64,000 bases of DNA from Candidatus Desulfobacillus denitrificans (lineage in GTDB: Bacteria > Pseudomonadota > Gammaproteobacteria > Burkholderiales > Rhodocyclaceae), in the NCBI GenBank assembly GCA_017347485.1, contig AP021857.1, forward strand, positions 1,965,390 through 2,029,389, given 5' to 3'. The position numbers and the translations under genes are program-made. Under the pieces are notes generated by a model. That model was not told where the DNA came from, made no database searches, and saw only the letters and a program-made list of their open reading frames with translations. Each line of letters starts with the position of its first letter. The first letter of the stretch is position 1. Below are positions 8,969 to 60,446 of this stretch, one piece after another.

Positions 8969-8992
8969 AAAGTCAGTCCCCGTGATACGGCG
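8969..8992 (+). repeat. Bipartite dispersed motif AAAGTCAGTC-N8-ACGGCG, copy 1
   Basis: Both halves exact; spacer CCCGTGAT. It overlaps the stop codon and last codons of the minus-strand MDR oxidoreductase gene. First copy after the defence island, which has none. Confidence 0.9.
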
Positions 8993-9992
8993 GCTTCACC
9001 TCCACCACCACCTTGCCGGTGGCGTGGCCGGCCTCGACATGGGCCAGCGCCTCGCGCACCTGCGCCAGCGGGAACACCTTGTCGATGATGGGCCTGACGC
9101 TGCCTTCCGCGAGCAGGCGGCCGATTTGTTCCAGCTGCTCGCCGCTCGGGTGCATGAACAGGTACTCGTAGCGCACGCCGTTCCGTTTCGCCAGGCGCAG
9201 GGTCTTGCGGTTGAGGAAATCGAGCAGCACGCCGAGGAGGGGATTCAGCCCCCATGCCCGCGCCAGCCGGCCGTCCGGCTTGCCGGCGATGCTCACCAGC
9301 ACGCCGCCGCGCCGGAGCACGGCGAAGGAACGGTGCTGGATGTCGCCGGCCTGGGTGTCGAAGACCAGGTCCTGTCCGCTGACGACGTCCTCGAAGCGCT
9401 GCGACTTGTAGTCGATGACGATGTCGGCGCCGAGGCTGCGCACCAGTTCGGCATTGCGCGCGCCGGCGGTGGTGGCGACCGTCGCGCCAGCGTGGCGGGC
9501 GAGCTGGATGGCGAAGCTGCCCACCCCGCCCGAGCCGGCGTGGATCAGCACCTTCTGCCCCGCTTTCAGGCCGCCGATCTCGAACAGCGCCTGCCAGGCG
9601 GTGAGGCCGGCCAGCGGCACCGCCGCCGCCTCGATGTGGCTGAGATTCGCCGGTTTCAGCGCCGCATCCGCCTCGGCCACCACGGCGAACTCGGCGAAGG
9701 CGCCGATGCGCTTCTTGTCCATGCGCGCGAACACCGCGTCGCCCGGCCGGAAGCGCGTCACGCCGGCGCCGACCGCCTTCACCGTGCCGGACAGGTCGTT
9801 GCCGAGGATGAGCGGGAAGCCGAAGGGGATGATCGGCTTGAGCAAGCCGTCGCGGATCTTGAAGTCGACCGGGTTCACGCTGGCGGCATGCACCTCCACC
9901 AGCAGCTCGCCCGGCCCCGCCTGCGGCTCGGGCAGCTCGCCCAGTTCGACGACGTCGCTGCCGCCGTAGCGGCGGATGAAGGCGGCTTTCAT
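8973..9992 (-). CDS. NADP-dependent MDR-family oxidoreductase (quinone oxidoreductase-like)
   Basis: This is a 339-residue zinc-independent medium-chain dehydrogenase/reductase of the quinone-reductase branch, which reduces quinones or enones with NAD(P)H. The N-terminal GroES-like fold carries GNDLSGTVKAVGAGVTRF and lacks the Cys ligands of zinc enzymes. The Rossmann fold has HAGSGGVGSFAIQLARHAGA at about 171-190. The substrate is unknown. The start ATG 9992 lies 4 bases inside the end of the hydrolase gene, so the two form an operon. Copy 1 of the dispersed bipartite motif spans its stop codon. Convergent neighbour genes are absent on this side; the hsd island starts 125 bases away. Confidence 0.85.
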   Translation of the reverse strand: MKAAFIRRYGGSDVVELGELPEPQAGPGELLVEVHAASVNPVDFKIRDGLLKPIIPFGFPLILGNDLSGTVKAVGAGVTRFRPGDAVFARMDKKRIGAFAEFAVVAEADAALKPANLSHIEAAAVPLAGLTAWQALFEIGGLKAGQKVLIHAGSGGVGSFAIQLARHAGATVATTAGARNAELVRSLGADIVIDYKSQRFEDVVSGQDLVFDTQAGDIQHRSFAVLRRGGVLVSIAGKPDGRLARAWGLNPLLGVLLDFLNRKTLRLAKRNGVRYEYLFMHPSGEQLEQIGRLLAEGSVRPIIDKVFPLAQVREALAHVEAGHATGKVVVEVKPPYHGD

Positions 9993-10846
9993 TTCGCCAG
10001 CAGGAATTCCTTGACGATCGCCACCTGCGCCTCATCCAGGAGCATCGGCGCGTGGCCGACGCCGGGAATCTCGGCGACGGTGGCCTTGGGTCCGCGCATA
10101 CCCATCTCCAGGCAGGTCTCGTGCGAGAGCAGGTCGGATTCGGCGCCGCGCACCACCAGGGTCGGGCAGCGGATGGCGTCGTAGAGCGGCCACAGGCTGA
10201 GATCGTCGCCGCCGATGTCCTTTTGGAAGGGCACGGCGATGCCAGGATCGTAGAGAAATTCATAGCCGCCGTCCGGCTTCTGCCGCGTGACGTGCTCGGT
10301 GAGGTGCTTCCACTGGGCATCGCTGAGCTTGCCGAACGGCGCGCTGACCTGGCGGACGTAGTACTCGGCATCCTGCAGGCTGGCGAACCGCGGCATCGCG
10401 CCGACGTATTCGCCGATGCGCCTGATGGCCACCGCGCTGATCAGCGGGCCGACGTCGTTGAGCACCAGGCGCGTGATGGGGCTGTCTTCCTGCGCGGCGA
10501 GCGCCATGCCGATCATGCCGCCCATCGAGGTGCCGACCCAGTGCACTTCATCGACGTTCAGGCGCGCGATCAGCGTCACCATGTCGGCGACGTACTGCTG
10601 CAGCTGGTAGTGCTCCTTGACGCGCAGCCAGTTGCTGCGGCCGCGGCCGACGACGTCGGGGCAGACGACGCGGTAGTGGCCGGACAAGGCCCGCGCCAGG
10701 ACGTCGAAGTCGCGCGCGTTGCGCGTCAGGCCATGCACGCAGACCAGCGCGCGCGGGTTGGCCGGATCGCCCCACTCGACGTAGGCCATGCGGTGCAGGC
10801 CGCCGGGGCTGAGGCATTGCACGGTGTGTTGGCGCATCTCTGTCAT
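9989..10846 (-). CDS. Alpha/beta-fold hydrolase
   Basis: The 285-residue cytoplasmic protein has the oxyanion HGLTRNARDF, the nucleophile elbow GTSMGG with S107, an acidic residue in VRGAESDLLS and a catalytic histidine in GVGHAPML near residue 266. The triad is thus complete. The substrate cannot be told; esterase or carbon-carbon hydrolase activities occur in this fold. A strong ribosome-binding site (AAAGGAGA) lies just upstream of ATG 10846. The gene overlaps the downstream oxidoreductase by 4 bases, so the two may work on the same small molecule (inference). Confidence 0.85.
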   Translation of the reverse strand: MTEMRQHTVQCLSPGGLHRMAYVEWGDPANPRALVCVHGLTRNARDFDVLARALSGHYRVVCPDVVGRGRSNWLRVKEHYQLQQYVADMVTLIARLNVDEVHWVGTSMGGMIGMALAAQEDSPITRLVLNDVGPLISAVAIRRIGEYVGAMPRFASLQDAEYYVRQVSAPFGKLSDAQWKHLTEHVTRQKPDGGYEFLYDPGIAVPFQKDIGGDDLSLWPLYDAIRCPTLVVRGAESDLLSHETCLEMGMRGPKATVAEIPGVGHAPMLLDEAQVAIVKEFLLAK

Positions 10847-10897
10847 GAATGTCTCCTTTGACGGGGAGTTTAGCAGAGCGCTTGCCCTCTCCCCCAG

Positions 10898-10923
10898 CCC
10901 CTCTCCCGCCTGCGGGAGAGGGG
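10898..10923. repeat. Intergenic palindrome, possible bidirectional terminator or REP-like element
   Basis: A perfect 12-base stem, CCCCTCTCCCGC with GCGGGAGAGGGG around a 2-base loop, between the divergent hydrolase and fccB-like genes. It is the same family as the palindrome inserted in hsdM at 7,619-7,644. There is no T tract, so a repeat element is more likely than a terminator. Confidence 0.7.
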
Positions 10924-10947
10924 AGATTCTCGGCTAAACTCGCAGGC

Positions 10948-12231
10948 ATGAAACTGACTCGCCGCCGTCTGCTCTCCGCCGCCCTCGCCGCCTGCGCCGC
11001 GCCGCTTTTCGCGCAGCAGGCGCCGGCCCTGCTGCCCGCGTCGAAGGGCCGGCGCGCGGTGGTCGTCGGCGGCGGCTGGGGCGGCCTCTCGGCGGCGCGC
11101 CACCTGCGCGCGCTGGCGCCGGAACTCGAGGTGGTACTGCTGGAGCGCAACCCCTCCTTCTTCTCCCTGCCGCTGTCCAACAAGTGGCTGGCCGGCCTCG
11201 TCGACGGGACGCTGCTGTCCCACGACTACCGCGCCGCGGCACGAACCTTCGGTTACGCCTTCCTGCAGGCCGAGGTCACGGCCATCGACCGCGAGCGGCG
11301 CCGCGTGCACACCGCGGGCGGCACGCTCGACTACGACTGGCTGGTGCTCGCCGTCGGCATCCGCCACGACTACGCCGCCTGGTTCGGCGAGGAACGCCAC
11401 GCCATCGAGCGGGCGCGGCAGGATTTTTTCTGCGCCTGGACGCCGGGCGGCGAGTTCCGCGCCCTGAAGGCCAAGCTGGAGAACTTCAAGCGCGGCGACC
11501 TGGTCATGACGATTCCGCCGCCGCCCTACCGCTGCCAGCCCGCGCCCTACGAGCGGGCGCTCGTCATCGGCCATCACTTCAAGGCGCGCGCCGTGCCGGC
11601 GAGACTGACTTTGCTCGACCCCAACCAGGTGCCGCAGCACTTTGCCGACGTCTTCGAGGCGCAGTACAAGGACCAGATCGCCGTCGTGCCGCATGCGCGC
11701 ATCAAGTCGGTGGATCCCTTCGCGAAGACCCTCGCCACCGAGTTCGACGACATCCGCTTCGACGACGCCCTGCTCATGCCGCCGCAGCAGGCTGGCGACC
11801 TCGCCTGGCAGGCCGGGCTGATCGGCCGCGATGCCGCGGGCAAGCCCACCGGCTGGGCGGCGCAGGACCCGCTGCACCTCCATGCCGCCGGCGACGAGCG
11901 GGTGTTCCTGGCGGGCGACCTGATCGACCGCGCCTCGCCGCTGTTCGGCCACTACCCGAAGAGCGGGCACCTGGCGGCGCGCCTCGGCCGCATCGCCGCG
12001 CAGGAGATCGCCGCGCGCGCCCGCGGCGGCGCAGCGGAAACGCTGCTGCCGGAGAGCAGCTGTTTCGTCACGACGCGGCTGTCACCGCCGGAATCGCTGC
12101 GCATCGGCACCCATTACCGCCTGCGCGGCGACGGGCTGATCGTGCAAACGACGAAGCAGGACGCCGACTTCAACCCGCGCGGGGAGGATGTCGACTGGGC
12201 GAAGGAAATGTTCAGGGAACTGCTGGGCTAG
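10948..12231 (+). CDS. FccB-like flavoprotein (sulfide dehydrogenase/SQR-family FAD oxidoreductase), Tat-exported
   Basis: This 427-residue protein resembles the flavin subunit of flavocytochrome c sulfide dehydrogenase, which oxidises sulfide in the periplasm. The start ATG 10948 gives MKLTRRRLLSAALAACAA, a twin-arginine signal. The FAD site VVVGGGWGGLSAARHL follows at about 38-53. The active-site-like segment PPPPYRCQPAPYERA contains C196. A second Cys, C372 in LPESSCFVT, is where the family places the partner of the redox disulfide. No cytochrome subunit gene is next to it, so its electron acceptor is unknown. Sulfide or another sulfur compound is the best guess. It converges with the DUF411 gene; both stop codons share one CTAG. 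Confidence 0.82.
   Translation: MKLTRRRLLSAALAACAAPLFAQQAPALLPASKGRRAVVVGGGWGGLSAARHLRALAPELEVVLLERNPSFFSLPLSNKWLAGLVDGTLLSHDYRAAARTFGYAFLQAEVTAIDRERRRVHTAGGTLDYDWLVLAVGIRHDYAAWFGEERHAIERARQDFFCAWTPGGEFRALKAKLENFKRGDLVMTIPPPPYRCQPAPYERALVIGHHFKARAVPARLTLLDPNQVPQHFADVFEAQYKDQIAVVPHARIKSVDPFAKTLATEFDDIRFDDALLMPPQQAGDLAWQAGLIGRDAAGKPTGWAAQDPLHLHAAGDERVFLAGDLIDRASPLFGHYPKSGHLAARLGRIAAQEIAARARGGAAETLLPESSCFVTTRLSPPESLRIGTHYRLRGDGLIVQTTKQDADFNPRGEDVDWAKEMFRELLG
11589..11612 (-). repeat. Bipartite dispersed motif, copy 2
   Basis: Exact in both halves, minus orientation, inside the fccB-like gene, where it encodes AVPARLTL. Confidence 0.9.
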
Positions 12232-12719: not shown

Positions 12720-12739
12720 CCCCGCATTCTCGTCGAAAC

Positions 12740-15076
12740 TCATTGTCCGTGCCAGTAGCGGCGGCGCGCTTCCCGCTGCAAAGTCAGTCGCCGCGGCACG
12801 GCGAAGTCGAGCGTCACCGCGCCGTCGCGGTCGGTGCGCAGCAGCCGCGCACCGGTGGCCTCGTGGCGCTGCCACACCGCCGCGTTCGGATGGCGGAAGC
12901 GGTTGCGGTAGCCGACCGGGAAGATCACGGTCTTCGCGCCGACGGCCGTCAGGAATTCCGGCGAGGAGGACGTGCGGCTGCCGTGGTGCGGCGCCAGCAG
13001 CACGTCGGCGCGCAGCCGCTCGCCCTGCCGCCGGGCCAGGGCCAGCTCGGTTGCGCTTTCGATGTCGCCGCTGAGCAGCGCGCTGCCGTGCGCCGAGGTC
13101 AGCTTCAGCACGCAGGACATGTCGTTGCTCTTGCGCTTCGCCGCATAGCCGGCCGCCTCGGGGTGCAGCATCTCGAAGCGCACGCCGTCCCATTCCCAGG
13201 CCTGGCCGTCCTCGCAGGGCCGGTGTCCTGTCGTCTCGCGGAAGGGATGGCCCTCGGGCAGCGAACTCGTCGTCCAGGCCACCGACAGGCCGTCGAGGAG
13301 CGACAGCGCGCCGCCGGCATGGTCCTGGTCCTCGTGCGTGAGGACCAGCGCGTCGAGGCGGCGCACGCCGGCGGCGCGCAGGTAAGGCAGCAGGATGCGG
13401 TTGCCGCTGTTGGCGTCGGGCGAGAACTGCGGTCCGGTGTCGTAGATCAGGTCGTGGTTCGCCGTCTGCGCATGCACGGCGAGGCCCTGGCCGACGTCGA
13501 GCACGGTGAGGCGCAGCTCGCCCGCGGCCGGCCGCGCCGGCTCGACCAGCAGCAGCGGCAGCATGAGGAAGGCGCCGTTGAACCGCGCCGGAAAGCCGCG
13601 CGGCAGCAGCAGCCAGGCGCAGCCGAGCAGCGCCAGCGCGACCGCCCAGGGCGGCGGCGCGGCCTGCTGCCAGATCGCCAGCGGCAGTTCGGCCAGCCAC
13701 TCGATGAAGGCCATCAGTCCGGCGAGGATCTGGTGCGCCAGCAGCAGCAGCGCGTCGAAGGGCAGCGCCGCGGCGACCAGCGCCAGCGGCGTGACGACGA
13801 AGCTGACGACGGGAATCGCCACGGCGTTGGCGAGCGGCGAGACCAGCGAGAACTGCTGGAACAGCGCCAGCAGCGCCGGGACCAGGCCGAGCGTCACCGC
13901 CCATTGCGCGCGCCCCCACTCGGCCAGCCAGTGGCCGGCGGCGAGCCGCCCCGCCAAGACGTAGAAGAGCAGCGTCACGGCGCCGAAGGAGAGCCAGAAG
14001 CCGGCCGAGAGCACCGCCCAGGGATCGGCCAGCAGCACGACCAGCAGCGCCAGCGCCAGCACGCGGCTGCCGGCGGCGGCGCGCCCGAACCACAGCGAAG
14101 CCGCCACCACCGTCAGCATGACCAGCGTGCGCTGCGCCGGCACGCCGAAGCCGGCCAGCAGGCAATAGGCGCAGGCCGTCGCCCAGCCCGCCGCGGCGGC
14201 GGCCTTCTGCGCCGGCAGGCGCAGCATCAGCGCGGGACGGCGGCGCCAGAGGAAGGATGCCAGCCAGGCGCCGAGCGCCGCCACCATCGTGACGTGCAGC
14301 CCCGAGATCGACATCAGGTGCGAGATGCCGGTGCGCGCGAAGAGCTGCCACAGCCCGCCGTCGATGGCGCGCTGGTCGCCGACGACCAGCGCCGCCAGCA
14401 CGCCGGCGTAGTCGCGCTCGGGCAGGGCGCGCAGGATGCGCGCGCGGATCAGCTCGCGCAGGCGCTCGACAACGTAGCCGGGCCGCCAGACGAAGGGATC
14501 GAGGCGGCGGTTGCCTTCGTCCGTGCGCACATAGCCCGTGGCGCGCACGCCGCGCTCGAACAGCCAGGCCTCGTAGTCGAAGCCGTCGGGATTGAGGTTG
14601 CCGTGCGGGCGCTTCAGGCGCACCGTGAATTGCCAGCGCTCGCCGGCGTGAACTTCCTGCACCTCGTCGCGCGCGCCGCCCGCCTCGTCGCGCCCGCCGC
14701 GGTACCAGGCCAGCGAAATTTTCGCGGGGACGGCGGCGCCGGCCTGCTCCACCGCGAAATCGAAGCGCACGCCGTTCTCGTAAGCCTGCGGCAGGCCGGC
14801 GACGACGCCGGTGACGCGAATGTCGCGGCCCTCGTTGTCGGCCGGCAGCGCGTCGGCGAGGCGCGCCTGGCCGAGCAGCGCCGCCCAGGCGAAACCGGCC
14901 AGCAGGGCCGCCAGGCAGATCCATGCCGCCCGCCACCGGCCGCCCGCGCGCCAGGCCGCAAAAGTCAGTCCCGCCAGGACGGCGGCGAGCCCGGCCAGCG
15001 CCGCGCCGCCGGGCAGCGCCGCCTGCTGCTGCAGGAACCAGACGCCGGCGGCGAAGGCGAGAATCGACAGGCGCAT
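12740..15076 (-). CDS. comEC: ComEC/Rec2 DNA-uptake channel
   Basis: ComEC carries single-stranded DNA across the inner membrane during natural transformation. The 778-residue protein has all three expected parts: N-terminal membrane segments with a DUF4131 region (about 1-200); the polytopic competence domain (about 220-500), with the segment ARTGISHLMSISGLH; and a C-terminal metallo-beta-lactamase-like domain with LDVGQGLAV, LTHEDQDHAGG and LAPHHGSRTSS. Length is normal and no motif is missing, so the cell probably takes up DNA. Two exact copies of the dispersed bipartite motif lie inside this gene. Start ATG 15076; it is divergent from the DUF2062 gene. Confidence 0.95.
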   Translation of the reverse strand: MRLSILAFAAGVWFLQQQAALPGGAALAGLAAVLAGLTFAAWRAGGRWRAAWICLAALLAGFAWAALLGQARLADALPADNEGRDIRVTGVVAGLPQAYENGVRFDFAVEQAGAAVPAKISLAWYRGGRDEAGGARDEVQEVHAGERWQFTVRLKRPHGNLNPDGFDYEAWLFERGVRATGYVRTDEGNRRLDPFVWRPGYVVERLRELIRARILRALPERDYAGVLAALVVGDQRAIDGGLWQLFARTGISHLMSISGLHVTMVAALGAWLASFLWRRRPALMLRLPAQKAAAAAGWATACAYCLLAGFGVPAQRTLVMLTVVAASLWFGRAAAGSRVLALALLVVLLADPWAVLSAGFWLSFGAVTLLFYVLAGRLAAGHWLAEWGRAQWAVTLGLVPALLALFQQFSLVSPLANAVAIPVVSFVVTPLALVAAALPFDALLLLAHQILAGLMAFIEWLAELPLAIWQQAAPPPWAVALALLGCAWLLLPRGFPARFNGAFLMLPLLLVEPARPAAGELRLTVLDVGQGLAVHAQTANHDLIYDTGPQFSPDANSGNRILLPYLRAAGVRRLDALVLTHEDQDHAGGALSLLDGLSVAWTTSSLPEGHPFRETTGHRPCEDGQAWEWDGVRFEMLHPEAAGYAAKRKSNDMSCVLKLTSAHGSALLSGDIESATELALARRQGERLRADVLLAPHHGSRTSSSPEFLTAVGAKTVIFPVGYRNRFRHPNAAVWQRHEATGARLLRTDRDGAVTLDFAVPRRLTLQREARRRYWHGQ
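12780..12803 (+). repeat. Bipartite dispersed motif, copy 3 (in comEC)
   Basis: Exact in both halves, spacer GCCGCGGC, near the 3' end of comEC, which reads it as AVPRRLTL. Confidence 0.9.
14961..14984 (+). repeat. Bipartite dispersed motif, copy 4 (in comEC)
   Basis: Exact in both halves, spacer CCGCCAGG, near the 5' end of comEC, which reads it as AVLAGLTF. Confidence 0.9.
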
Positions 15077-17817: not shown

Positions 17818-18501
17818 TTAAAGTGCTTCCTGCAGCACCCCGTCGTCGAGACGCAGCGTGCGCGAGGCCTTGGCGGCCAGATGGAGGTCGTGGGTGACGA
17901 TGACGAAGCTGGTGCGGTGGGACTCGTTGAGCGCCAGCATGAGGTCGAAGACCGCTTCGGCGGTATGGCGGTCGAGGTTGCCGGTCGGCTCGTCGGCCAG
18001 CACGCAGGCCGGCTGCGTCACCAGCGCGCGCGCCACCGCCGCGCGCTGGCGCTCGCCGCCGGAGAGTTCGCCGGGTGTATGTTCCAGTCGCTGCGCCAGG
18101 CCGACCTCCTTGAGCATCTCCGCCGCACGGGACTCCGCCTCGGCGCGCGGCAGGCGCCGGATCAGGAGCGGCATGGCGACGTTCTCCAGCGCGGTGAACT
18201 CCGGCAGCAGATGGTGGAACTGGTAGACGAAGCCGAGGCTTTCGTTCCTCAGCCGTCCGCGCTCGGCCTCATTCACCGTCGTCAGGTCGCGGCCGAGCAG
18301 GCTGATCGCGCCCGCCGTCGGCGCGTCCAGCCCGCCGAGCAGGTGCAGCAGGGTGCTCTTGCCCGAGCCGGAGGCGCCGACGATGGCGACGCGCTCGCCG
18401 CGCGCGATGTCGAGGTCGACGCCGGCGAGCACCGGCACCTCGAGCTTGCCCTGGATGTAGGTTTTCTTCAGGCCGCGGCAGGAGAGGACGGCCTCACTCA
18501 T
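17818..18501 (-). CDS. lolD: Lipoprotein-releasing ABC transporter ATP-binding protein LolD
   Basis: LolD powers release of outer-membrane lipoproteins from the inner membrane to LolA. The 227-residue ATPase has Walker [10 protein letters not shown] (42-50), the Q-loop region in [20 protein letters not shown] (typical of LolD), the signature LSGGERQR, and Walker [14 protein letters not shown]. Length is normal. Its start overlaps the end of the permease gene by 8 bases, giving a lolC/E-lolD operon. Confidence 0.95.
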
Positions 18502-19735
18502 AGCGCAGGGCCTCGGCGGGATTCACGCGCGAAGCGCGCCAGCTCGGATACAGCGTCGCCAGCAAAGTCAGCGCGAACGACACGGCGGCGATGATGCCGA
18601 CGTCGCGCCACTGCAGCTCGGAGGGCAGCTCGGAAATGTAGTACACCTCCTTGGCGAGGAACTGCGTGTTGAACAGCCGCTCGATGGCCGGCACCACCAC
18701 GTCGATGTTGAGCGCCAGCGCGACGCCGCCAGCCAGCCCGAGGGCGAGGCCGATCACGCCGATCAGCGCGCCCTGCACGATGAACACCTGCATGATGCTG
18801 CCCGGGCTCGCCCCCAGCGTGCGCAGGATGGCGATGTCGGATTCCTTGTCGGTGACCGCCATCACCAGCGTGGACACGATGTTGAAGGCGGCCACGGCGA
18901 CGATCAGCAGCAGGATGATGAACATCACGTTCTTCTCGATCTGCACGGCGCGGAAGAAGTTGGCGTGGCTGCGCGTCCAGTCCGTGATGTAGACGTCGCC
19001 CGGGATCAGGCGCAGCAGCTCGCGCGCCACCTGCGGCGCCCGGAACAGGTCGTCGAGCTTGAGGCGCACGCCGGAAACGTTGCCTTCCATGCGGTAGAGC
19101 GCCTGCGCGTCGGCCATGTGCACCAGCGCCAGGCCGGAATCGTATTCGTACATGCCGGCCTCGAAGAGGCCGACCACCTTGAACTGCTTCAGGCGCGGCA
19201 GGATCGCCGCCGGCGTCACCAGCCCCTGCGGCGCGATCAGCGTCACCTTGTCGCCGACGAACACCCGCAGGGCGCGGGCGAGCTCCGCGCCGAGGATGAT
19301 GCCGAACTCGCCCGGCTTGAGCGCCTGCATCGAGCCGCCGCGCATGTAGCGGTTGAAGTCCGCCACCTGCTCCTCGGCGTCGGGCAGCACGCCGCGCACC
19401 AGCGCGCCGCGCACCGTCTGCTCGAAGGACAGCATGCCCTGCGCCGAAACATAGGGCGCGGCCGCCAGCACCGACTTGTGCCGCATGGCCTGTTCGGCCA
19501 CCTGCTGCCAGGCCGGCAGCTCGCCGCCGGGCCCGGAGACCTGCACGTGCGAGGCGACGCCGAGGATGCGCGTGCGCAGCTCCTTCTGGAAGCCGTTCAT
19601 CACCGACAGCACGACGATCAGCGCGGCAACACCGAGGGCGATGCCGCACATCGAGATCAGCGAGATGAAGGAGATGAAATGGTTGCGCCGCTTGGCGCGC
19701 GTGTAGCGCAGGCCGATGAAGAGTTCATACTGCAT
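18494..19735 (-). CDS. lolC: Lipoprotein-releasing ABC transporter permease (LolC/LolE family)
   Basis: This 413-residue MacB-like permease forms the membrane part of the Lol exporter. Membrane segments are at about 22-50 ([20 protein letters not shown]), 270-295, 320-345 and 370-400, with a large periplasmic domain between the first two. Only one permease gene is here, so it may work as a homodimer (LolF-like) or pair with a copy elsewhere. A degenerate copy of the dispersed motif lies inside. The start is 22 bases from the divergent rpfE gene, so promoters overlap. Confidence 0.93.
18564..18587 (+). repeat. Degenerate copy of the bipartite dispersed motif
   Basis: Left half AAAGTCAGCG (8 of 10), spacer of 8, right half ACGGCG exact. 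Inside the lol permease gene. Correct spacing argues that it is a decayed or emerging copy. Confidence 0.6.
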
Positions 19736-19757: not shown

Positions 19758-20765
19758 ATGATTCATCTCGTCGTTCCCGGCCTGCTCTGGCCGAAGGATT
19801 CCCTCGCCGAGGTCACGCGCGGCCGCGAACTGCCGGCGCTCCACGCCCTGCTCGGCCGCGGCCGCCGCCTGCGCCGGCCCGCCGTGCCGGCCGAGCGCTG
19901 GCTGTGCGAGGCTTTCGGCATCAAGGGCGGGGAACTGCGAGAATTGCCCATTGGCGCGCTGCGCCTGCTCGGCGAGGGCCGCGACCCCGGCCGGGACGCC
20001 TGGCTGTGCGCCGATCCGGTGCACCTGCGCTTCTCGCGCAACACCCTGGTCGTCGATGCGGCCGGGCCGGATCTCGACCAGGACGAGGCGGCGCAGCTTG
20101 TCGCCGCGCTCAACGAACACCTCGCCGACTTCGGCGAATTCCTCGCCCCGCATCCGCGCCGCTGGTACCTGCGCGCGAAGGCCGCGCCGCGCATCCTCAC
20201 GCATGCGCCCGCGGCGGTCGCCGGGCGCACGCTGGAGCCCTTCCTGCCACAGGGCGAAGACGCGCGCGACTGGCGGCGCCTGATCAACGAGGCGCAGGTG
20301 CTGCTGCACAACCATCCGCTCAATGCCGCGCGCGAGGCGGCGGGACGCCCGACGGCGAACAGCCTGTGGCCGTGGGGCGCCGGGCCGCTGCCGGCTGCCG
20401 CGCGCGCGCCGGCGCCGGAGGTTCACGCCGATCATCCCCTGGCGCTCGGACTGGCGAAACTCGCCGTCATCCCCGCCACGCCGCTGCCCGCGCGCCTCGA
20501 CGACGCCGTGCCGCAGGGACTGACTTTTCTGGAAACACTGAGCGAGGCCGCGCAAAGCCTGGATGCCGCCGCCTGGCGCGCCGGCCTGGCGGAACTCGAG
20601 GCCCGTTGGTTCGCCCCGGCGCTGGCCGCCCTCAAGGCGCGCCGCGTGCACGGCCTGCGCCTGACCGCCCTCGGCGACGACGCCGTCGTCGACGTCACGC
20701 TGGACGCCGGCGACCTGTGGCAGTTCTGGCGGCGGCCGAAGATGCTGGCGGACCTGATCGCATGA
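19758..20765 (+). CDS. rpfE: RpfE-like conserved protein upstream of recJ
   Basis: The 335-residue cytoplasmic protein (MIHLVVPGLLWPKDSLAEV) corresponds to the protein usually named RpfE, found directly before recJ in Xanthomonas and many betaproteobacteria. It may share ancestry with alkaline-phosphatase/phosphoglycerate-mutase-like proteins, but no catalytic set is evident and its function is unknown. The chosen ATG 19758 avoids running into the divergent lol permease. Its stop overlaps the recJ start (ATGA). Copy 5 of the dispersed motif is inside. Confidence 0.75.
   Translation: MIHLVVPGLLWPKDSLAEVTRGRELPALHALLGRGRRLRRPAVPAERWLCEAFGIKGGELRELPIGALRLLGEGRDPGRDAWLCADPVHLRFSRNTLVVDAAGPDLDQDEAAQLVAALNEHLADFGEFLAPHPRRWYLRAKAAPRILTHAPAAVAGRTLEPFLPQGEDARDWRRLINEAQVLLHNHPLNAAREAAGRPTANSLWPWGAGPLPAAARAPAPEVHADHPLALGLAKLAVIPATPLPARLDDAVPQGLTFLETLSEAAQSLDAAAWRAGLAELEARWFAPALAALKARRVHGLRLTALGDDAVVDVTLDAGDLWQFWRRPKMLADLIA
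20504..20527 (-). repeat. Bipartite dispersed motif, copy 5
   Basis: Exact in both halves, minus orientation, inside the rpfE-like gene, which reads it as AVPQGLTF. Confidence 0.9.
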
Positions 20766-22491: not shown

Positions 22492-22515
22492 AAAGTCAGT
22501 CTATTCGGGACGGCG
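22492..22515 (+). repeat. Bipartite dispersed motif, copy 7 (intergenic)
   Basis: Exact in both halves, spacer TATTCGGG, 38 bases after the recJ stop. Non-coding, so the sequence is not kept by protein constraint. Confidence 0.9.
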
Positions 22516-23565: not shown

Positions 23566-23589
23566 CGCCGTATCACAGCGACTGACTTT
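23566..23589 (-). repeat. Bipartite dispersed motif, copy 8 (intergenic)
   Basis: Exact in both halves, minus orientation, between brnTA and the RHH-PIN pair. The spacer (motif sense) is GCTGTGAT. Confidence 0.9.
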
Positions 23590-40880: not shown

Positions 40881-40884
40881 CTTT
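40861..40884 (-). repeat. Bipartite dispersed motif, copy 11 (gene ends)
   Basis: Left half exact; right half ACGCCG, one mismatch. It spans the stop codon of the triple kinase and the first base of the msbA stop, between two convergent genes. Confidence 0.85.
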
Positions 40885-49339: not shown

Positions 49340-50826
49340 CGGATCGGACTCCGGGCTGCTTGTGCCTCGGCGGCAGCGTTGGCGTAGACGATGACCGCCG
49401 CCTTGCCCGTGGCGTCCGGCTGCCAGCGGAACTTCTCGTTCAGCGCCGGGCCAGCCGGTCCGAACAGGCGCGGAAAATCCTCCGGCGCTTCCACCGCCAG
49501 CAGCGCCGGCTCGGATCCGGCCGCCAGCCGCAATGCCTCATCCTCGCCGATCCAGGGGCGGAAGGTGCCCAGGCCCAGTTGCAGGGTCACCGGCGTGTCC
49601 AGGTGATGAAGGCGCCGGACGTCGAGTCCGCTTGCCGCCAGCGCCCGCGCGGCGCCCTCCGCCGCGACGGTGTAGCGCACTTCCTCGCTTTCGCGCATCG
49701 CCGCGCCGTGATAAATCCACCCGTTCCCGGCAAGGACGATCAAAGTCAGTCCCGCCAGCACGGCGCCGGTGAGGGGGCGGCCCATGCGTTCGGCCAGCCG
49801 CGCCATCTCGCGGCCGGCGAGCAACGCCGCCGCCGGCCACAGCGGCAGCAGCAGGTCGCCGCGATAGTGCGAACCGAGGGAGAAAACGGCGATGCCGCCG
49901 GCGATCCAGCAGAACAGGAAGCGCTCGAAGCGCCGCTCGGCAGCATCGACGGCGGGTTGGCGCACGACGCGCCAGAGTCCGTACGCGGCGAACAGGCTGA
50001 AGGGCAGGAAACGCAGGATGAAGTAGAGGCTCGGCTTGGGCAGGTTGCGCCCCGGAAAGCCGCCCTTGCCCACGCCCGTGGCCTGGCCGATCAGTTCCTC
50101 GAAGAACATCTTGTCGATCAGGGGCTGGCCGGCCGACAGGATGGCCGGCAGCAGCCAGCCCAGGGTCAGCAGCAGGAACAGCAGAATGCCGGTCCACTGC
50201 GCCCCGGCGAGCGGGGGCGTGGCAGGATCGCTGCGCCGCTCCCAGAACCAGGCCGCGAGGCCCATGGCGACGAGCACCAGACCGAGCGGTCCCTTGATTA
50301 GGGTGGCCATGGCGGCCCAGAACCAGAACGGCGTCCAGCCGCCGCCGCGCGCCCAGGCGCGGTGGGCGGCGAAGGCGCCCGCGGCGACGGCCAGCGCGAA
50401 CAGCGCATCGGTGCGCACCAGGGCGACGTGCTTTGACATCATCGGCGCCAGCACCACGGCCAGCCCCGCCAGCCCGCCCGCCAGCAGGCTATGGCGCCGC
50501 CGCCCGATCTCGAAGACCAGCAGCGCCATCGCCAGCACCGCGAGCGCGGAAGGCAGCGCAAGGGTGAACCGGTCGATGCCGCCGATTTCGGCGAAGGCGG
50601 CGGCGATCCAGGTGTGCAAGGGCGGTTTCGACATGATGCGGCCGCGGATGTCCTGCTGCACCAGCCAATGGCCTTGCCAGACGACGTCCATGACGTAGCC
50701 GACGTTGCGGTCCTGCGCATCGGCCTCGATATTGGAGGGGCCGCTCAGGCGCAGTGCCAGCAGCGCCAGCACCAGCGCCGCCAGCAGAACCCGCCAGCAG
50801 AGCGGCTTGTTCCAGGCGTCGCGCAT
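49336..50826 (-). CDS. GT39/ArnT-like membrane glycosyltransferase
   Basis: The 496-residue protein has the ArnT-like loop EADAQDRNVGYVMDVVWQGH with acidic residues near position 35, then DIRGRIMSKPPLHTWIAAAF (the K-P-P motif of this group), about twelve helices and a C-terminal periplasmic part. It should transfer a sugar from undecaprenyl phosphate. It is translationally coupled to the VTT protein upstream (TGATG) and to the second GT-C protein downstream (ATGA). Motif copy 13 is inside a membrane helix. Confidence 0.88.
   Translation of the reverse strand: MRDAWNKPLCWRVLLAALVLALLALRLSGPSNIEADAQDRNVGYVMDVVWQGHWLVQQDIRGRIMSKPPLHTWIAAAFAEIGGIDRFTLALPSALAVLAMALLVFEIGRRRHSLLAGGLAGLAVVLAPMMSKHVALVRTDALFALAVAAGAFAAHRAWARGGGWTPFWFWAAMATLIKGPLGLVLVAMGLAAWFWERRSDPATPPLAGAQWTGILLFLLLTLGWLLPAILSAGQPLIDKMFFEELIGQATGVGKGGFPGRNLPKPSLYFILRFLPFSLFAAYGLWRVVRQPAVDAAERRFERFLFCWIAGGIAVFSLGSHYRGDLLLPLWPAAALLAGREMARLAERMGRPLTGAVLAGLTLIVLAGNGWIYHGAAMRESEEVRYTVAAEGAARALAASGLDVRRLHHLDTPVTLQLGLGTFRPWIGEDEALRLAAGSEPALLAVEAPEDFPRLFGPAGPALNEKFRWQPDATGKAAVIVYANAAAEAQAARSPIR
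49743..49766 (+). repeat. Bipartite dispersed motif, copy 13
   Basis: Exact in both halves, spacer CCGCCAGC, in the ArnT-like gene, read as AVLAGLTL. Confidence 0.9.
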
Positions 50827-51560: not shown

Positions 51561-52315
51561 TTTTCCCGCCCTTGCTCCGCCACTGTCTCGACGCCATCGA
51601 CCCGCTCGGCCGGCACCGCCCGGGCGGCGAACCAGCGCACGCCGAAGCAGTCGCGGATACCGCGCCAGAGCCGGTTGTGCACGCCGTACTTGGACACGCC
51701 GCGCAGGCGCGGCCGGTGGTTCACCGGGGTTTCGGCGACGCTGAAGCCCTTGCTGCGCAGCAGCGTCGGCATGAAACGGTGCAGGCCGTTGAACACCGGC
51801 AACTCGCGCACGCAGCCCGCGCGCACCACGCGCACGCCACAGCCGCTGTCCGAGACGCGATCGCCGGTGGCCCAGTTGCGGAAGCCGTTGCCGACGCGGG
51901 AAGAGAGCTTGCGCAGGAAGTTGTCCCGGCGCTTGGCGCGCACACCGGTGACGCAATCGACGCCGAGCCGGCGCGCCTCCTCCAGCATGCGCGGCAGGTC
52001 GGCCGGATCGTTCTGGCCATCGCCGTCCAGCGTGCCGATCCATTCGCCGCGGGCGGCGCGGAAACCGGTCGCCACGGCGGCGCTCTGGCCGAAATTGCGG
52101 CGGTGGCGCAGGCTGCGCACGACGGCACCGGTCTCCAAAGTCAGTCGCCGCAGCACGGCGGGCGTGTCGTCGCTGCTGGCGTCGTCGACGAAAATCACCT
52201 CGTAGGGCTCCGTCCGGCCCTCGAAGGCGGCCCGGATCTCGCGCACCATCGGCTCGATGTTCTCCGCCTCGTTATAGACGGGGATGACGATGGAAAAAAA
52301 CGGGGGTGTCTGCAT
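51557..52315 (-). CDS. Family 2 glycosyltransferase, polyprenyl-phosphate sugar synthase type (ArnC/DPM1-like)
   Basis: The 252-residue protein starts FFSIVIPVYNEAENIEPMVR and has EVIFVDDASSDDTPAVL, the catalytic-metal motif in WIGTLDGDGQNDPADLP, and a C-terminal HRPRLRGVSKYG, the typical R-x-x-G-x-S-K-Y of DPM1/ArnC enzymes. It lacks the C-terminal membrane helices of GtrB. It likely joins a nucleotide-sugar to undecaprenyl phosphate. Motif copy 14 is inside. It is coupled to the VTT gene (ATGA). Confidence 0.88.
   Translation of the reverse strand: MQTPPFFSIVIPVYNEAENIEPMVREIRAAFEGRTEPYEVIFVDDASSDDTPAVLRRLTLETGAVVRSLRHRRNFGQSAAVATGFRAARGEWIGTLDGDGQNDPADLPRMLEEARRLGVDCVTGVRAKRRDNFLRKLSSRVGNGFRNWATGDRVSDSGCGVRVVRAGCVRELPVFNGLHRFMPTLLRSKGFSVAETPVNHRPRLRGVSKYGVHNRLWRGIRDCFGVRWFAARAVPAERVDGVETVAEQGREK
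52137..52160 (+). repeat. Bipartite dispersed motif, copy 14
   Basis: Exact in both halves, spacer GCCGCAGC, in the ArnC-like gene, read as AVLRRLTL. Confidence 0.9.
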
Positions 52316-55672: not shown

Positions 55673-55759
55673 ACACAGAGAACACGGAGACACAGAGATC
55701 ACGGAGAGAAGCGATCGAAGGAAATCTCTGTGGACTCTGTGCCTCTGTGCTCTCTGTGT
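55673..55759. repeat. ACACAGAG-type hairpin repeat, second copy
   Basis: The left arm has ACACAGAGAACACGGAG and so on; the right arm, read in reverse complement, gives ACACAGAGAGCACAGAG and so on, with several mismatches. It is related to the element at 33,168-33,253. It separates the exonuclease gene from the carbamoyltransferase gene and may end or attenuate the upstream transcript. Confidence 0.8.
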
Positions 55760-55781
55760 CGAAAGTGGTTCGGTTTTCATC

Positions 55782-56558: not shown

Positions 56559-56668
56559 TTGGCCGCCTCGGCCGGCGCCGGCTTGTTGGCCTCCGGAAAA
56601 TGGACGTGCAGATTGACGCAGCCGCCGAGCAGGACAACAAGGGCAAGCAAGAGGAATCTCGGTCTCAT
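56555..56668 (-). CDS. ynbE: YnbE-like small outer-membrane lipoprotein
   Basis: The 37-residue protein is MRPRFLLLALVVLLGG followed by the lipobox Cys in LLGGC, then NLHVHFPEANK and a Pro/Ala tail. After cleavage about 20 residues remain, as in YnbE. YnbE joins the end of YdbH and anchors this lipid bridge at the outer membrane (known in E. coli). Its ATG overlaps the stop of the YdbH-like gene by 4 bases, the same pairing as in E. coli. Confidence 0.85.
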   Translation of the reverse strand: MRPRFLLLALVVLLGGCVNLHVHFPEANKPAPAEAAK

Positions 56669-58572
56669 TCGATGACGATGCCGGGGCGGCCCGCGGTCAC
56701 TTCGCGAATGCGCGACACCAGCGCCTCCCAGTCGATACGCCGATTGTAGCCGATGATGCTCACCGAGGGCATGCCGGTTCCGCGCATCAGCACCACGCCG
56801 TCGCCCTCGCGCTCGACGCCGTCCATCAGGCAGACGCCGTCCCGCAGCGTGCAGCCGAAGCCGATGCGGGCGTAGCCGAAACTGAAGCCGCTGCGCTCCG
56901 GCACGCGCTCCAGCCGGTCCGGGGTGCCGGCCTCGCCCAGCGCGGTGATGTCCTTCAGGGCGCCCAGGCTGAGCCGGCGCGGATAGTCCCCTTCGCTGCT
57001 GGCGATGCGCGCTTCGAACCTGAGCGGCTTCAGGCCCTGCATCTCCAGGTCGTGCAGGTCGGCATCGAAGCGGCCCTCGATGGCGCCGAAGGCGAAGGTG
57101 CGCGTGAGCATGCCGAGGTCGAGGTTGCGCGCCGTCACCTCGGCGATCAAGCGGCGATTCTTGCCGAAGGGATCGACCAGGCGCAGCTGGTGCACGATGA
57201 TGCCGCCGTCGAAGACCTCGATGGCGAGCGCGCCGTCGAGCCGCAGCAGGCCCGGCTCGTAGGCGATGCGCGGGATGCGCGCGGTGAGGCTGCCCGCCAT
57301 CGACGGCAGCTTGAGGGCGCGCGAGAGCTTGGGCATGGAAACGCCCTCGATGCCGCCCTCGAATTCGCCGTGCCAGCCGGACTGACTTTTCACCAGACGC
57401 AAAGCGTCGATGACCAGCTTGCCGTCGAGCAGCGGCGCAACCAGCCCCTCGACCTTCGCCTCGTTGCCGTCCAGCTGCAGCGGCAGCCTGAAGCCGCCCA
57501 GCGGCAGGTCGCCCAGGCGCCCGGCGGCGATGCCGATCTCCGCCTCCGTCGGCGTGCCGGCTTCCCAGGGAATGCGCGCATTCACGCCATTCAGCTCCAG
57601 GTAGCCCGTGCTGTCGACAAGCGCCGCGTCCTCCAGTCCGGCATAGAAGCGGCGCAGGCCGCCGGCCGCCCATTCGGCGGAAAAGCGGGCATGGCCCGAG
57701 GCCTGCCAATCGGGAAAGCCGAGCGAGGCGAGCCAGGGCCGCAGCCAGTCGCGCATGGCGGCGGAAAGGTCGAGCGGTTCGGTGACGAAGCCCCAGTCGG
57801 TGGCCTCGCCGCGTTCGCGGTTCCAGCGCAGGCCGGCGCTCATCGCGCCGACGCCGGCCACGTCGAGCCGCGCCAGGTCCACCTCCAGCGTCTTGCGGCC
57901 GAGGCGGCCTTCCGCCTCCAGGCGCACGCCGGCCGCGCGCCGCCACGGCGCGCGATAGAGCTCGCCCTGCGGCCAGTCGAGGCGGGCGCGCCAGTGCCAG
58001 TGGTCGCCGCTCTTCTCGGCGGCGGCGTTGAGGCTGAAGGCGATGTCCTTGCCGGCGAGCTCGCCCTCGCGGCTGGCGAAGGCAAGATCCTGCGCGGACA
58101 GATCGAGCAGCGCGCGATCGCCCTCGACGCGCAGGGCCAGGTCGATGCGCCCCTCCGGCTGCCAGCCGCGCAGCCGCTTGACGAGCGGCGAGAAGGCAAC
58201 GACATCGACGCCGCGCAGGGTGAAATCGAGGAAGCCGTCGGCGCGCCAGGCGAGGCTGAACGGCAGCGACGGCCGATTGACGCCGCGCTCGTCCTCGCGG
58301 CGCAGGCTGCCCTCCGGGCAGTCGAGGCGCCGGCCATCGAAATAGAAGCCGGAGCAATGCAGCCGCAGCGCCCGGTATTCGGTGCCGGCGACGAACAGCC
58401 GGCCGAGGCGGATGTCGGCCTCGCCGCGCCGCGCCGCGTCGAGGCTGACGCTGACGCCGTCGGCCTCGAAGGCGGCATGGCGAATCGAGCCGAGCGTGAG
58501 GGTGAGCTGCGCCGCGCCGCCCGTGCCGGCGGCCAGGCACAGGCCGAGCAGAAGGCTAAGCCGGAAAAACAC
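56665..58572 (-). CDS. ydbH: YdbH-like AsmA-type intermembrane phospholipid-transport protein
   Basis: The 635-residue protein has an N-terminal signal/anchor ([20 protein letters not shown]) and long repeats of beta-strand character, for example ELNGVNARIPWEAGTPTEAE and VFDGGIIVHQLRLVDPFGKN, which is the YdbH signature area. The C terminus is DGVVLMRGTGMPSVSIIGYN. YdbH forms a bridge for lipids between the two membranes with YnbE. It is shorter than E. coli YdbH (about 880 residues), so the bridge is either shorter or starts elsewhere. No ydbL is seen. It overlaps cysM by 17 bases. Confidence 0.8.
   Translation of the reverse strand: MFFRLSLLLGLCLAAGTGGAAQLTLTLGSIRHAAFEADGVSVSLDAARRGEADIRLGRLFVAGTEYRALRLHCSGFYFDGRRLDCPEGSLRREDERGVNRPSLPFSLAWRADGFLDFTLRGVDVVAFSPLVKRLRGWQPEGRIDLALRVEGDRALLDLSAQDLAFASREGELAGKDIAFSLNAAAEKSGDHWHWRARLDWPQGELYRAPWRRAAGVRLEAEGRLGRKTLEVDLARLDVAGVGAMSAGLRWNRERGEATDWGFVTEPLDLSAAMRDWLRPWLASLGFPDWQASGHARFSAEWAAGGLRRFYAGLEDAALVDSTGYLELNGVNARIPWEAGTPTEAEIGIAAGRLGDLPLGGFRLPLQLDGNEAKVEGLVAPLLDGKLVIDALRLVKSQSGWHGEFEGGIEGVSMPKLSRALKLPSMAGSLTARIPRIAYEPGLLRLDGALAIEVFDGGIIVHQLRLVDPFGKNRRLIAEVTARNLDLGMLTRTFAFGAIEGRFDADLHDLEMQGLKPLRFEARIASSEGDYPRRLSLGALKDITALGEAGTPDRLERVPERSGFSFGYARIGFGCTLRDGVCLMDGVEREGDGVVLMRGTGMPSVSIIGYNRRIDWEALVSRIREVTAGRPGIVIE
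57366..57389 (-). repeat. Bipartite dispersed motif, copy 15
   Basis: Exact in both halves, minus orientation, in the YdbH-like gene, read as KSQSGWHG, the same frame as copies 10 and 12. Confidence 0.9.
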
Positions 58573-59455
58573 CAGTCGAAAGATAGCGGTCGCCGCGGTC
58601 GCAGACGATGGTGACGATCACCGCGTTGCTGACCTGCCCGGCCACGCGCAGCGCCACCGCCATAGCGCCGCCGGAGGAAATGCCGGCAAACAAGCCTTCC
58701 TCGCGCGCCATGCGCCGCGTCGTCTCCTCGGCGTCGGCCTGGCTGACATACTCGAGGCGGTCGACGCGGTCCTTGTCGTAGATCTTCGGCAGGTAGGCCT
58801 CCGGCCACTTGCGGATGCCGGGGATCTGCGCTCCCTCCTCGGGCTGGCAGCCGATGATCTCGATTTTCGGGTTCTTCTCCTTGAAGAAGCGCGAGCAGCC
58901 CATGATGGTGCCGGTGGTGCCCATGCTGGAGACGAAGTGGGTGATCTTCCCGCCCGTGTCGCGCCAGATCTCCGGGCCGGTGCCCTCGTAGTGGGCGAGC
59001 GGATTGTCCGGGTTGCCGAACTGGTCGAGCATGATGCCCTTGCCCTCGGCGACCATCTTGTCGGCGACGTCGCGCGCCATTTCCATGCCGCCCTTCTGCG
59101 GCGTCAGCACGATCTCGGCGCCGAAGGCGCGCATGCTCTGGCGCCGCTCGACGGAGAGGTGCTCGGGCATGATCAGCACCATGCGGTAGCCGCGCATGGT
59201 CGCCGCCATGGCCAGGGCGATGCCGGTGTTGCCGCTGGTGGCCTCGATGAGCGTGTCGCCGGGCCGGATCTCGCCGCGCTTCTCGGCATGCAGGATCATC
59301 GACAGCGCGGGGCGGTCCTTCACCGAGCCGGCCGGGTTGTTGCCCTCCAGCTTGGCCAGGATGACGTTGCCGCGCCGCTCGCCCTGCGCACCGGGCAGGC
59401 GCTTCAGGCGCACCAGTGGGGTGTTGCCGACGAAGTCCTCGAGAAATTCATTCAT
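58556..59455 (-). CDS. cysM: Cysteine synthase B
   Basis: CysM makes cysteine from O-acetylserine and sulfide or thiosulfate with PLP. The 299-residue protein has the PLP lysine in [17 protein letters not shown], the substrate loop [12 protein letters not shown] and the phosphate-binding [11 protein letters not shown]. The motif [11 protein letters not shown] and the short C-terminus fit CysM rather than CysK. It overlaps hldD by 8 bases at one end and the YdbH-like gene at the other. Confidence 0.94.
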
Positions 59456-60446
59456 GCTTCAGCCTGTCCTCGACGTAGCGCGCCACGCCTTCCTCGACGC
59501 TCAGGAAGGGGTCGCCGTAGCCCGCCCCGCGCAGTAGCGAGACGTCGGCCTCGGTGTAGCTCTGGTACTTGCCCCTGAGCGCTTCGGGAAAGGCGATGTA
59601 TTCGATCATGCCGCGCGCGCGCAGTTCCGCCAGCGGCAGCGGCGCCTCGCCGTCGGCGGCGCGGCAGGCATTCACCGTCGCCACGGCGACGTCGTTGAAG
59701 GTCTGCGCGCGGCCGCTGCCGACGTTGTAGATGCCGGAGGCGCCGGAATCGAGGAAATGCAGGTTCACCTTCACCACGTCGTCGATGTGGATGAAGTCGC
59801 GCCGCTGCTCGCCGTCGGCATAGCCGTCGCAGCCCTCGAACAGCTTCACCTTGCCCTCGGCGCGGTACTGGTTGAAGAAGTGGAAGGCCACCGAGGCCAT
59901 GCGGCCCTTGTGCGCCTCGCGCGGGCCGTACACGTTGAAATAGCGGAAGCCGGCGACCTGGGCGTGAAAGTCAGTCTCGGCCAGACGGCGGCGCACGATC
60001 TGGTCGAAGAGGAACTTCGAATAGCCATAGACGTTGAGCGGTGCCTCGCATTCGCGCGATTCGCGGAAGACGCCGCCGGCCCCGTATACCGAGGCCGACG
60101 AGGCGTACAGGAAGGGCACCTCCTGGTCGAGGCAGAAATCGAGCAGCTCGAGCGAATAGCGGAAGTTGTTGTCCATCATGTAGCGGCCGTCGCTCTCCAT
60201 GGTGTCGGAGCAGGCGCCCTGGTGCAGCACGGCCTCGACGGCGCCGTCCAGCTCTCCCGCCGCCAGCACCTCGACGAACTCGTTCTTGTCGAGATAGTCG
60301 GCGATTTCGCAATCCACCAGGTTGCGGAACTTGTCGGCCTTGGCGAGGTTGTCGACGGCGATGATCTTGGTGACGCCGCGCGCGTTGAGCGCCTTCACCA
60401 GGTTCGAGCCGATGAATCCGGCGGCGCCGGTCACGATGGTGTGCAT
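59448..60446 (-). CDS. hldD: ADP-L-glycero-D-manno-heptose 6-epimerase
   Basis: HldD makes ADP-L-glycero-beta-D-manno-heptose for the LPS core. The 332-residue SDR enzyme has [19 protein letters not shown] near the N terminus and the catalytic Y-x3-K in [11 protein letters not shown]. Family signatures [20 protein letters not shown] and [17 protein letters not shown] are present. It follows the heptose kinase gene after 16 bases. Motif copy 16 is inside. Confidence 0.96.
59967..59990 (+). repeat. Bipartite dispersed motif, copy 16 (in hldD)
   Basis: Exact in both halves, spacer TCGGCCAG, in hldD, read as RRLAETDF, a fourth frame setting. Confidence 0.9.

Follow-up and report, generated by a model that had tools for sequence, protein, structure and literature searches.

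A bipartite genome-wide DNA word in Candidatus Desulfobacillus denitrificans, a likely DNA uptake sequence with dialects in related genera

According to the accessible part of a 2025 article (PMC12616744), selection of DNA at uptake by an enriched short motif is known in no families other than Neisseriaceae and Pasteurellaceae. The DUS of Neisseriaceae (ATGCCGTCTGAA and its dialects; reader ComP) is present in hundreds or more copies, is restricted to the family, forms genus dialects around a conserved inner core, and occurs in inverted pairs as terminators, as described in the available sections of two papers (PMC3630211, PMC12616744); in the former, the core CTG is common to all dialects. 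The USS of Pasteurellaceae (AAGTGCGGT and ACAAGCGGT types) is orientation-neutral and genome-wide, has two dialect types, and combines a core with less conserved extra regions over about 29 bp (excerpts of PMC1939737 and PMC12616744). The word described here, with the consensus RAAAGTCAGTC-N8-ACGGCG, resembles both systems in these respects. However, it is bipartite and spans 24–25 bp, whereas the DUS is given in the accessible text as one continuous motif up to about 13 nt (PMC12616744), and it is neither ATGCCGTCTGAA nor a continuous dialect described in the available parts of PMC3630211 and PMC12616744. It also occurs in a different family within the same order-level group, is less dense, and included a single inverted pair among 82 sample copies. 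The USS is unrelated in sequence and belongs to a gammaproteobacterial branch of the phylum. The DUS core CTG has a counterpart in the reverse complement of the present word, CTGACTTT, which is the most constant part of the word, although this likeness may be due to chance. Judging from sequence comparisons, we consider it probable that a reader protein maintains this word genome-wide and that it serves as a DNA uptake sequence with dialects in related genera.

The window, i.e., the whole 64-kb stretch of DNA analyzed, contained 14 exact and two one-mismatch copies of AAAGTCAGTC-N8-ACGGCG, 10 on the plus and six on the minus strand (Table 1). At up to three mismatches, 19 matches were observed, as compared with a mean of 0.58 and a maximum of 3 in 100 dinucleotide shuffles. 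All copies listed in a preliminary description of this DNA were found again, with one start corrected from 49743 to 49742 and the degenerate copy at 18564 placed at two mismatches. The same description had given the base at position −1 as A or C, which holds in the window (15 of 16 copies) and does not extend genome-wide: the 74 exact left halves in a 464-kb sample were preceded by A 44, G 20, C 9, and T 1 times, and the rule is "rarely T". The fixed spacing claimed for the two halves was borne out, since 78 of 79 occurrences of ACGGCG between positions −20 and +40 relative to AAAGTCAGT in the sample fell at the identical distance.

Table 1. Positions of the word copies and of the comEC-like gene in the window.
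Feature	Position	Strand	Context or basis
Word copy, exact	8969..8992	+	Overlaps 3' end of predicted minus-strand gene 8973-9992
Word copy, exact	11589..11612	-	Within predicted gene 10849-12231
comEC-like DNA-uptake channel gene, 778 aa, two word copies inside	12740..15076	-	Profile domains
Word copy, exact	12780..12803	+	Within comEC, close to its 3' end
Word copy, exact	14961..14984	+	Within comEC, close to its 5' end
Degenerate word copy, two mismatches	18564..18587	+	Within lolE-like gene 18494-19735
Word copy, exact	20504..20527	-	
Word copy, one mismatch (right half GCGGCG)	22030..22053	-	
Word copy, exact	22492..22515	+	Outside predicted genes
Word copy, exact	23566..23589	-	Outside predicted genes
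Word copy, exact	31933..31956	+	
Word copy, exact	39151..39174	+	
Word copy, one mismatch (right half ACGCCG)	40861..40884	-	3' end of msbA-like gene 40884-42698
Word copy, exact	44959..44982	+	
Word copy, exact	49742..49765	+	
Word copy, exact	52137..52160	+	
Word copy, exact	57366..57389	-	
Word copy, exact	59967..59990	+	

The whole genome (3,145,360 bases) contained 354 exact copies (171 forward and 183 reverse), or approximately one per 8.9 kb, whereas the reversed-pattern control gave 0. The preliminary description had staked the motif on counts in the full genome and in relatives; the genomic count stands far above its control, and relatives also carry the word. The 464-kb sample held 68, 20, and 7 copies at 0, 1, and 2 mismatches, respectively, against none in four order-3 Markov simulations, and in an unbiased 10-mer count of this sample the strongest non-CRISPR long words were parts of the word. 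Such over-representation against controls is as expected of an uptake sequence. Comparison of 82 sample copies with predicted genes placed 52 inside, 5 across, and 25 outside genes, so that copies were denser outside genes (non-coding share of the sample, 13.9%). The genic copies occupied five of six reading frames and encoded unrelated peptides, in agreement with the earlier view that protein constraint is not the cause.

Uptake words in Neisseria and Haemophilus occur at roughly one per 1–2 kb. The density of the present word is low beside this figure, which counts against an uptake reading.

Related genomes were then compared. Exact copies were found in 15 of 16 genomes of the genus, at 15 to 354 per genome. 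In G011, AAAGTCAGCC versions were common alongside AAAGTCAGTC (491 copies within two mismatches, 95 exact). A second Rhodocyclaceae genus, g106 (two genomes), uses the dialect AAAGTCAG-CCGTGGCGRN-ACGCCG, with 356 and 123 copies within one mismatch of AAAGTCAG-N10-ACGGCG (controls, 2 and 0). One genome of a third genus (G037 of g23) carries a thinner form in 138 copies (control, 1). Across dialects, AAAGTCAG is constant and the right half is ACGGCG or ACGCCG, the right halves of two close genera being one base apart. Outside the family, more than two copies were present in one of 386 genomes. De novo word searches in samples of G008, G037, and G029 found nothing comparable, and the top 12-mers of G008 were other repeats. 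The word thus shows the lineage restriction, and the dialects tracking lineages with a common core, that characterize uptake sequences.

Conservation at individual sites depended on whether a relative carries the word. Two word-bearing relatives with good coverage retained 97–99% of the 16 fixed bases, as compared with 83–86% for flanks (G001, 232/240 vs. 5000/5809; G010, 205/208 vs. 4307/5200); G009 (107/112 vs. 2203/2649) and G004 (62/64 vs. 1300/1600) are also word-bearing. In the word-poor G008 (51/64 vs. 1313/1600) and G013 (64/96 vs. 1781/2142), retention of the fixed bases did not exceed, or fell below, that of flanks. The fixed bases were only slightly above flanks in G003 (95/112 vs. 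2245/2797) and G011 (149/176 vs. 3547/4400), partly because G011 uses its own dialect. The copy at 11589 is exact at the orthologous sites of G001, G010, and G004, has one mismatch in G009, and is missing from G003 and G011, where seven mismatches separate the sites from the word, and the copy at 22030 is retained at one to two mismatches in G003, G010, G001, G009, and G011. Word-less orthologous sites differed mostly by substitutions and mostly aligned without insertion, and spacers varied between relatives where the fixed bases stayed. Words arise by substitution and are maintained in word-carrying genomes, more weakly in G003 and G011, as expected of an uptake sequence.

Site conservation and lineage dialects would also be expected if the word were the site of an intracellular chromosome-organizing or segregation protein (MatP-, SlmA-, or Noc-like), selected site by site and co-evolving with it. 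However, such systems have tens of sites, mostly palindromic, in restricted chromosome regions, whereas the 354 exact copies are evenly spread and non-palindromic. Single sites were freely gained and lost between species, and 52 of the 82 sample copies lay wholly within genes. We therefore regard this explanation as unlikely.

The structure of the word bears on a second alternative, a self-mark or target of a defense or methylation system. Type I restriction sites are bipartite with a fixed gap, and the two halves and the 8-base gap resemble them. However, the word has approximately sixteen fixed bases and a structured spacer, which is not free and leans to [C/G/T]-C-N-G-C-R-[G/A]-S; it is far longer than known sites, and we know of no restriction or methylation site of comparable length. 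Restriction sites also tend toward avoidance rather than hundreds-fold enrichment, and this origin appears very improbable. The flanks of the USS are soft AT-rich tracts, whereas in the present word the right half is as strict as the left.

Orientation argues against a signal for a motor running with replication or repair. Although the word is dispersed, mostly genic, and above chance like Chi or KOPS, those signals are short and strand-biased; here, the forward copies listed, covering 63% of the chromosome, filled even bins (11, 11, 10, 12, 7, 13, 17, and 19; p = 0.31), and at most 62.5% of 88 copies were co-oriented under any two-arc split of 21 sampled stretches (origin position not used). 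The weak strand bias proposed from the window holds genome-wide, with no strong orientation bias with replication, and we give the Chi- or KOPS-like explanation almost no weight. Both orientations, chromosome-wide spread, and lack of replication-strand bias are properties of uptake sequences. More generally, Chi, KOPS, MatS, HIP1, and REP are likewise dispersed over-represented words, but they are shorter, palindromic, strand-biased, regional, or intergenic, and the present word fits none of these descriptions.

It is scarcely credible that the copies derive from a small mobile element or repeat family or represent regulatory motifs or terminators, despite their number, a palindromic pair, and the higher density outside genes (25/82 in 13.9% of the sequence), since similarity ends sharply at the word edges (−1 to +23), word-less orthologous places mostly align without insertion, spacers vary while fixed bases are kept, most copies are genic in five frames, and no insertion with flanks or target duplication of the MITE or REP kind was found. 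The pair in question lies tail to tail as a perfect palindrome ending in TTTT and is the only inverted pair among the 82 sample copies; this form is also described for known uptake sequences in the accessible part of PMC12616744.

The preliminary description had likened the motif to an uptake signal or another protein-binding word. Abundance, both orientations, lineage limits, dialects, site conservation, and five reading frames support this view and point to a protein-read word, not to a coding repeat, a mobile repeat, or one oriented by replication; we infer that it is read during DNA uptake. According to this uptake model, the 24–25 bp word on free DNA would be bound at the cell surface by a protein component of the type IV pilus or of the competence machinery, so that word-holding DNA of the cell's own kind would be pulled in preferentially, and ComEC would pass a single strand through the inner membrane. 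Chromosomal recombination would then favor alleles holding the word, word-creating point mutations would spread (molecular drive), and words would accumulate in tolerant places in both orientations. A change in the reader would change the favored word and yield dialects, and loss of uptake would let words decay, which would fit G008.

Literature searches found no paper on a DNA uptake sequence in Rhodocyclaceae, and the single match for Burkholderiales concerned Neisseria; the matches listed for the string AAAGTCAGTC have titles on animals, parasites, plants, viruses, or food. The accessible portions of one paper on natural transformation and competence in Rhodocyclaceae yielded no uptake word. 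The word is best read as a bipartite uptake sequence belonging to a third family. If this is true, that family, whose members are environmental bacteria, would offer an independent test of why uptake words evolve, separating mate choice, molecular drive, and by-product of binding preference as candidate causes, and of whether readers are always minor pilins. Co-change of reader and word would be traceable, as a single base of the right half separates two close genera, and the word would show which DNA such bacteria exchange in nature. The odds appear evenly balanced for a more specific proposal, in which Rhodocyclaceae would possess a third, independently evolved self-DNA language, bipartite and with at least two clear dialects, read at the surface by a new kind of sequence-specific DNA receptor, distinct from the ComP-like pilin that the usual minor-pilin operon encodes.

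Finally, we focused on competence genes and candidate readers. The product of the comEC-like gene contains Competence (PF03772; E 2.4e-59), DUF4131, and Lactamase_B domains, and the whole-genome comEC match falls at the same place as the window gene. comEC was found in 15 of 16 genus genomes, and minor pilins in each of 12 genomes examined. Over 60 genomes, comEC (54) and ComP_DUS-type pilins (50) were just as common in word-less relatives, and the machinery thus does not predict the word. PF16732 matched 12 of 16 genus genomes and 50 of 60 overall, with or without the word; PF12019 also matched 12 of 16 genus genomes, with no match in a search of the C. Desulfobacillus denitrificans genome itself. 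The ComP-like pilins of G000 and G004 were 91% identical to each other, of another type than those of ten other genus genomes, and 27–37% identical to most others over short stretches. That of G001 was 69% identical to the pilin of G167, which has another genus and dialect, and closer to it than to genus mates. Thus, unlike ComP with the DUS, no ComP orthologue tracks the present word. A ComP/FimT-type pilin was rejected as reader, as the family is present without the word and word-sharing species have two types of its operon. An MSHA-like pilin cluster (G000, 590–607 kb), attractive because of its apparent absence from word-less G008, was also rejected, as tblastn found it there; one of its pilins was detected in G120 as well.

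G008, although without words, keeps an open comEC; this, the presence of the machinery in word-less relatives, and the divergence of the ComP-like pilin weigh against the uptake reading. In the ComEC tree, the genus formed a starlike fork that included G008, placed next to G001 with less than starred support. This placement makes loss of the word in G008 likely, but does not prove it. We attach no meaning to the longer end branches of G008 and G013 (0.26 and 0.28, respectively, as compared with 0.06–0.13), with which no clearly lower pairwise identity was associated.

The preliminary description had reported a dispersed bipartite word in the window, and the word was present there as claimed, with 14 exact copies, two copies with one mismatch, and one with two. 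Matches with up to three mismatches numbered 19, compared with 0.58 in shuffled sequences. The entire chromosomal contig (3,145,360 bases) contained the exact word 354 times, in 171 cases on the forward strand and in 183 on the reverse strand, and had no match to the reversed-pattern control. An unbiased 10-mer count in a 464 kb sample of this genome, made up of the window plus 20 further stretches, each 20 kb long, was headed by AAAGTCAGTC (75 vs. 0.27 expected) and AAAAGTCAGT (54 vs. 0.13 expected), followed by a CRISPR repeat. The same sample held 68, 20, 7, 9, and 46 sites with 0, 1, 2, 3, and 4 mismatches to the word, respectively, whereas four order-3 Markov simulations gave 0, 0, 0, 3.75, and 39.25.

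Among the 74 exact left halves in the sample, the right half ACGGCG followed at the fixed distance in 67 and with one altered base in the other seven, and the half-to-half distance took a single value in 78 of 79 cases. Information in these 74 alignments ended at positions -1 and +23; position -1 was A, G, or C, with T occurring once, and the spacer preferred [C/G/T]-C-N-G-C-R-[G/A]-S. One tail-to-tail pair, at 16683 of stretch L018, formed a perfect palindrome ending in TTTT.

Heuristic gene calls placed 52 of 82 sampled copies inside genes, 5 across a gene edge, and 25 outside genes, the last exceeding the 13.9% share of non-coding sequence (binomial p = 9e-5). Genic copies used five of the six reading frames, and the encoded peptides varied (e.g. 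KKSVPAGRR). The first 100 forward copies listed, extending to 1,974,358, were distributed among eight equal bins as 11, 11, 10, 12, 7, 13, 17, and 19 (chi-square p = 0.31). Orientation in 21 sampled stretches was 48 forward and 40 reverse, and co-orientation did not exceed 62.5% for any two-arc split, the splits not being anchored to the origin. By GC content of 4 kb bins, four copies fell in 11 bins below 62% and 19 in 16 bins of at least 70%. These class counts are small; scarcity at low GC is what one would predict if DNA of recent foreign origin were free of the word.

To compare conservation site by site, we aligned the window with syntenic stretches of eight relatives and scored the fixed bases of the word against their flanks (see table). 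Ascertainment of the sites in the strain's own genome inflates identity-based conservation, but equally for all relatives. Fixed bases differed from flanks with p = 1e-7 in G001 and 6e-13 in G010, but 0.62 in G008, and in G013 they were kept significantly less than the flanks. All 16 bases were intact at 11 of 13 aligned sites in G010 compared with 827 of 6837 nearby control placements (p = 5e-9). The fixed bases were thus kept in word-carrying genomes and not where the word is missing or rare, a pattern that protein constraint would not be expected to produce. Most orthologous places without the word showed no insertion in the alignment; small gaps occurred at 14961 and 40861 in G011, 40861 in G001, 14961 in G003, and 12780 in G013.

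Site conservation and copy numbers in Rhodocyclaceae genomes (controls in parentheses; other, outside the strain's own genus)
Genome	Genus	Fixed bases kept	Flank bases kept	Word, <=2 mismatches	AAAGTCAG-N10-ACGGCG, exact	AAAGTCAG-N10-ACGGCG, <=1 mismatch
G001	own	232/240	5000/5809			
G003	own	95/112	2245/2797			
G004	own	62/64	1300/1600			
G008	own	51/64	1313/1600	21 (9)		
G009	own	107/112	2203/2649			
G010	own	205/208	4307/5200			
G011	own	149/176	3547/4400			
G012	own			32 (2)		
G013	own	64/96	1781/2142	60 (5)		
G014	own			266 (0)		
G015	own			316 (0)		
G037	g23			113 (4)	64	138 (1)
G120	g106				5	123 (0)
G167	g106				20	356 (2)
G201	other				6	
G254	other				5	
G425	other				5	28 (4)

The exact word occurred in 15 of 16 genomes of the genus, from 15 copies (G012) up to 354, and was absent in exact form from G008; several of the genomes compared are incomplete MAGs (completeness 53-100%). 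By record name, the nearest lolE genes belonged to MAGs of Rhodocyclaceae or Zoogloeaceae, and contig coordinates matched stretch L083 to G003, L112 to G006, and L084 to G008. A family scan with AAAGTCAG-N10-ACGGCG (395 genomes; 68 genera in the tally) found 3 (G008) to 433 copies within the genus and at least five in only 6 of 379 genomes outside it; the reversed control never exceeded 1 in any genome. In an order scan with AAAGTCAG-N10-ACGSCG (399 genomes), more than two copies were found in one of 386 genomes outside the family, G475, with 11. Six of these lay in the contig-end stretches L384:1-16000 and L387:1-4000, at 70-72% GC compared with approximately 61-65% in most other sampled bins. 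These ends resemble either DNA received from a donor that carries the word or a chimeric contig, and their comparison with the sampled stretches of the genus gave no match at 1e-20. The word was also found in 24 viral stretches, once in 23 and twice in L040 (IMGVR_UViG_3300048562_000006; 11279 and 11707). The spacing of 428 in L040 is near that of chromosomal copies at 836,085 and 836,511, and this contig may therefore hold host DNA.

Allowing two mismatches raised the count in G011 from 95 to 491 (control 1), with AAAGTCAGCC common alongside AAAGTCAGTC. The dialect of genus g106, defined from 37 copies in two genomes (G167 and G120; 172.5 kb in total), was AAAGTCAG-CCGTGGCGRN-ACGCC(G); at the key position of its right half, 35 of the 37 copies had C instead of G. 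The dialects therefore share AAAGTCAG, the spacing, some of the spacer (GC-R), and ACG-x-C, and it is the right half that varies between genera.

These data showed that the word is maintained by something that reads it, is orientation-neutral, is gained and lost by substitution, and exists in dialects. Judged from sequence, it follows the pattern of an uptake sequence. In Neisseria and Haemophilus, DNA that bears such a word is preferentially taken up and then recombines, which makes the words accumulate (PMC1939737); the Rhodocyclaceae word would accumulate by the same process. To the extent that sequence can reveal function, it works like the Neisseriaceae DUS and Pasteurellaceae USS; it differs from them in being bipartite and in occurring in another family. 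Only two families are known to have uptake words according to passages of PMC12616744, and we found no report of one in Rhodocyclaceae in the literature searched, which mostly left out subscription papers and preprints.

ComEC, the inner-membrane channel, is encoded within the window by a gene holding two copies, by chance or not. A ComP-like minor pilin as the sole reader was rejected: the pilin type at the locus in G000 (the present strain) and G004 differs from that in ten other genomes of the genus, and the pilin of G001 is closest to that of G167, which has a different dialect. Within the genus, the minor-pilin operon next to ispH comes in two versions that look unrelated (L293 and L301 vs. 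L294-L300, L302, L303, and L173), as though it had been exchanged among species. A different minor pilin is predicted as the reader in Pasteurellaceae, according to passages of PMC12616744, so it would not be surprising if the reader here were not ComP.

Window positions 1-7200, at approximately 58-60% GC compared with 66-72% for most of the rest, contained no word within two mismatches and are perhaps acquired DNA. A surface-polysaccharide-type gene cluster at 34880-63912, encoding a glycosyltransferase, an acyltransferase with an SGNH domain, MsbA, and UDP-glucose dehydrogenase, carries words as elsewhere on the chromosome. A CRISPR array at L022:4137-5476 (approximately 1,944,137-1,945,476 of the chromosome) comprises 21 repeat copies with GGAAGGCTACAATC/GTTGTAGC-like ends; the appearance of the repeat suggests type II-C.
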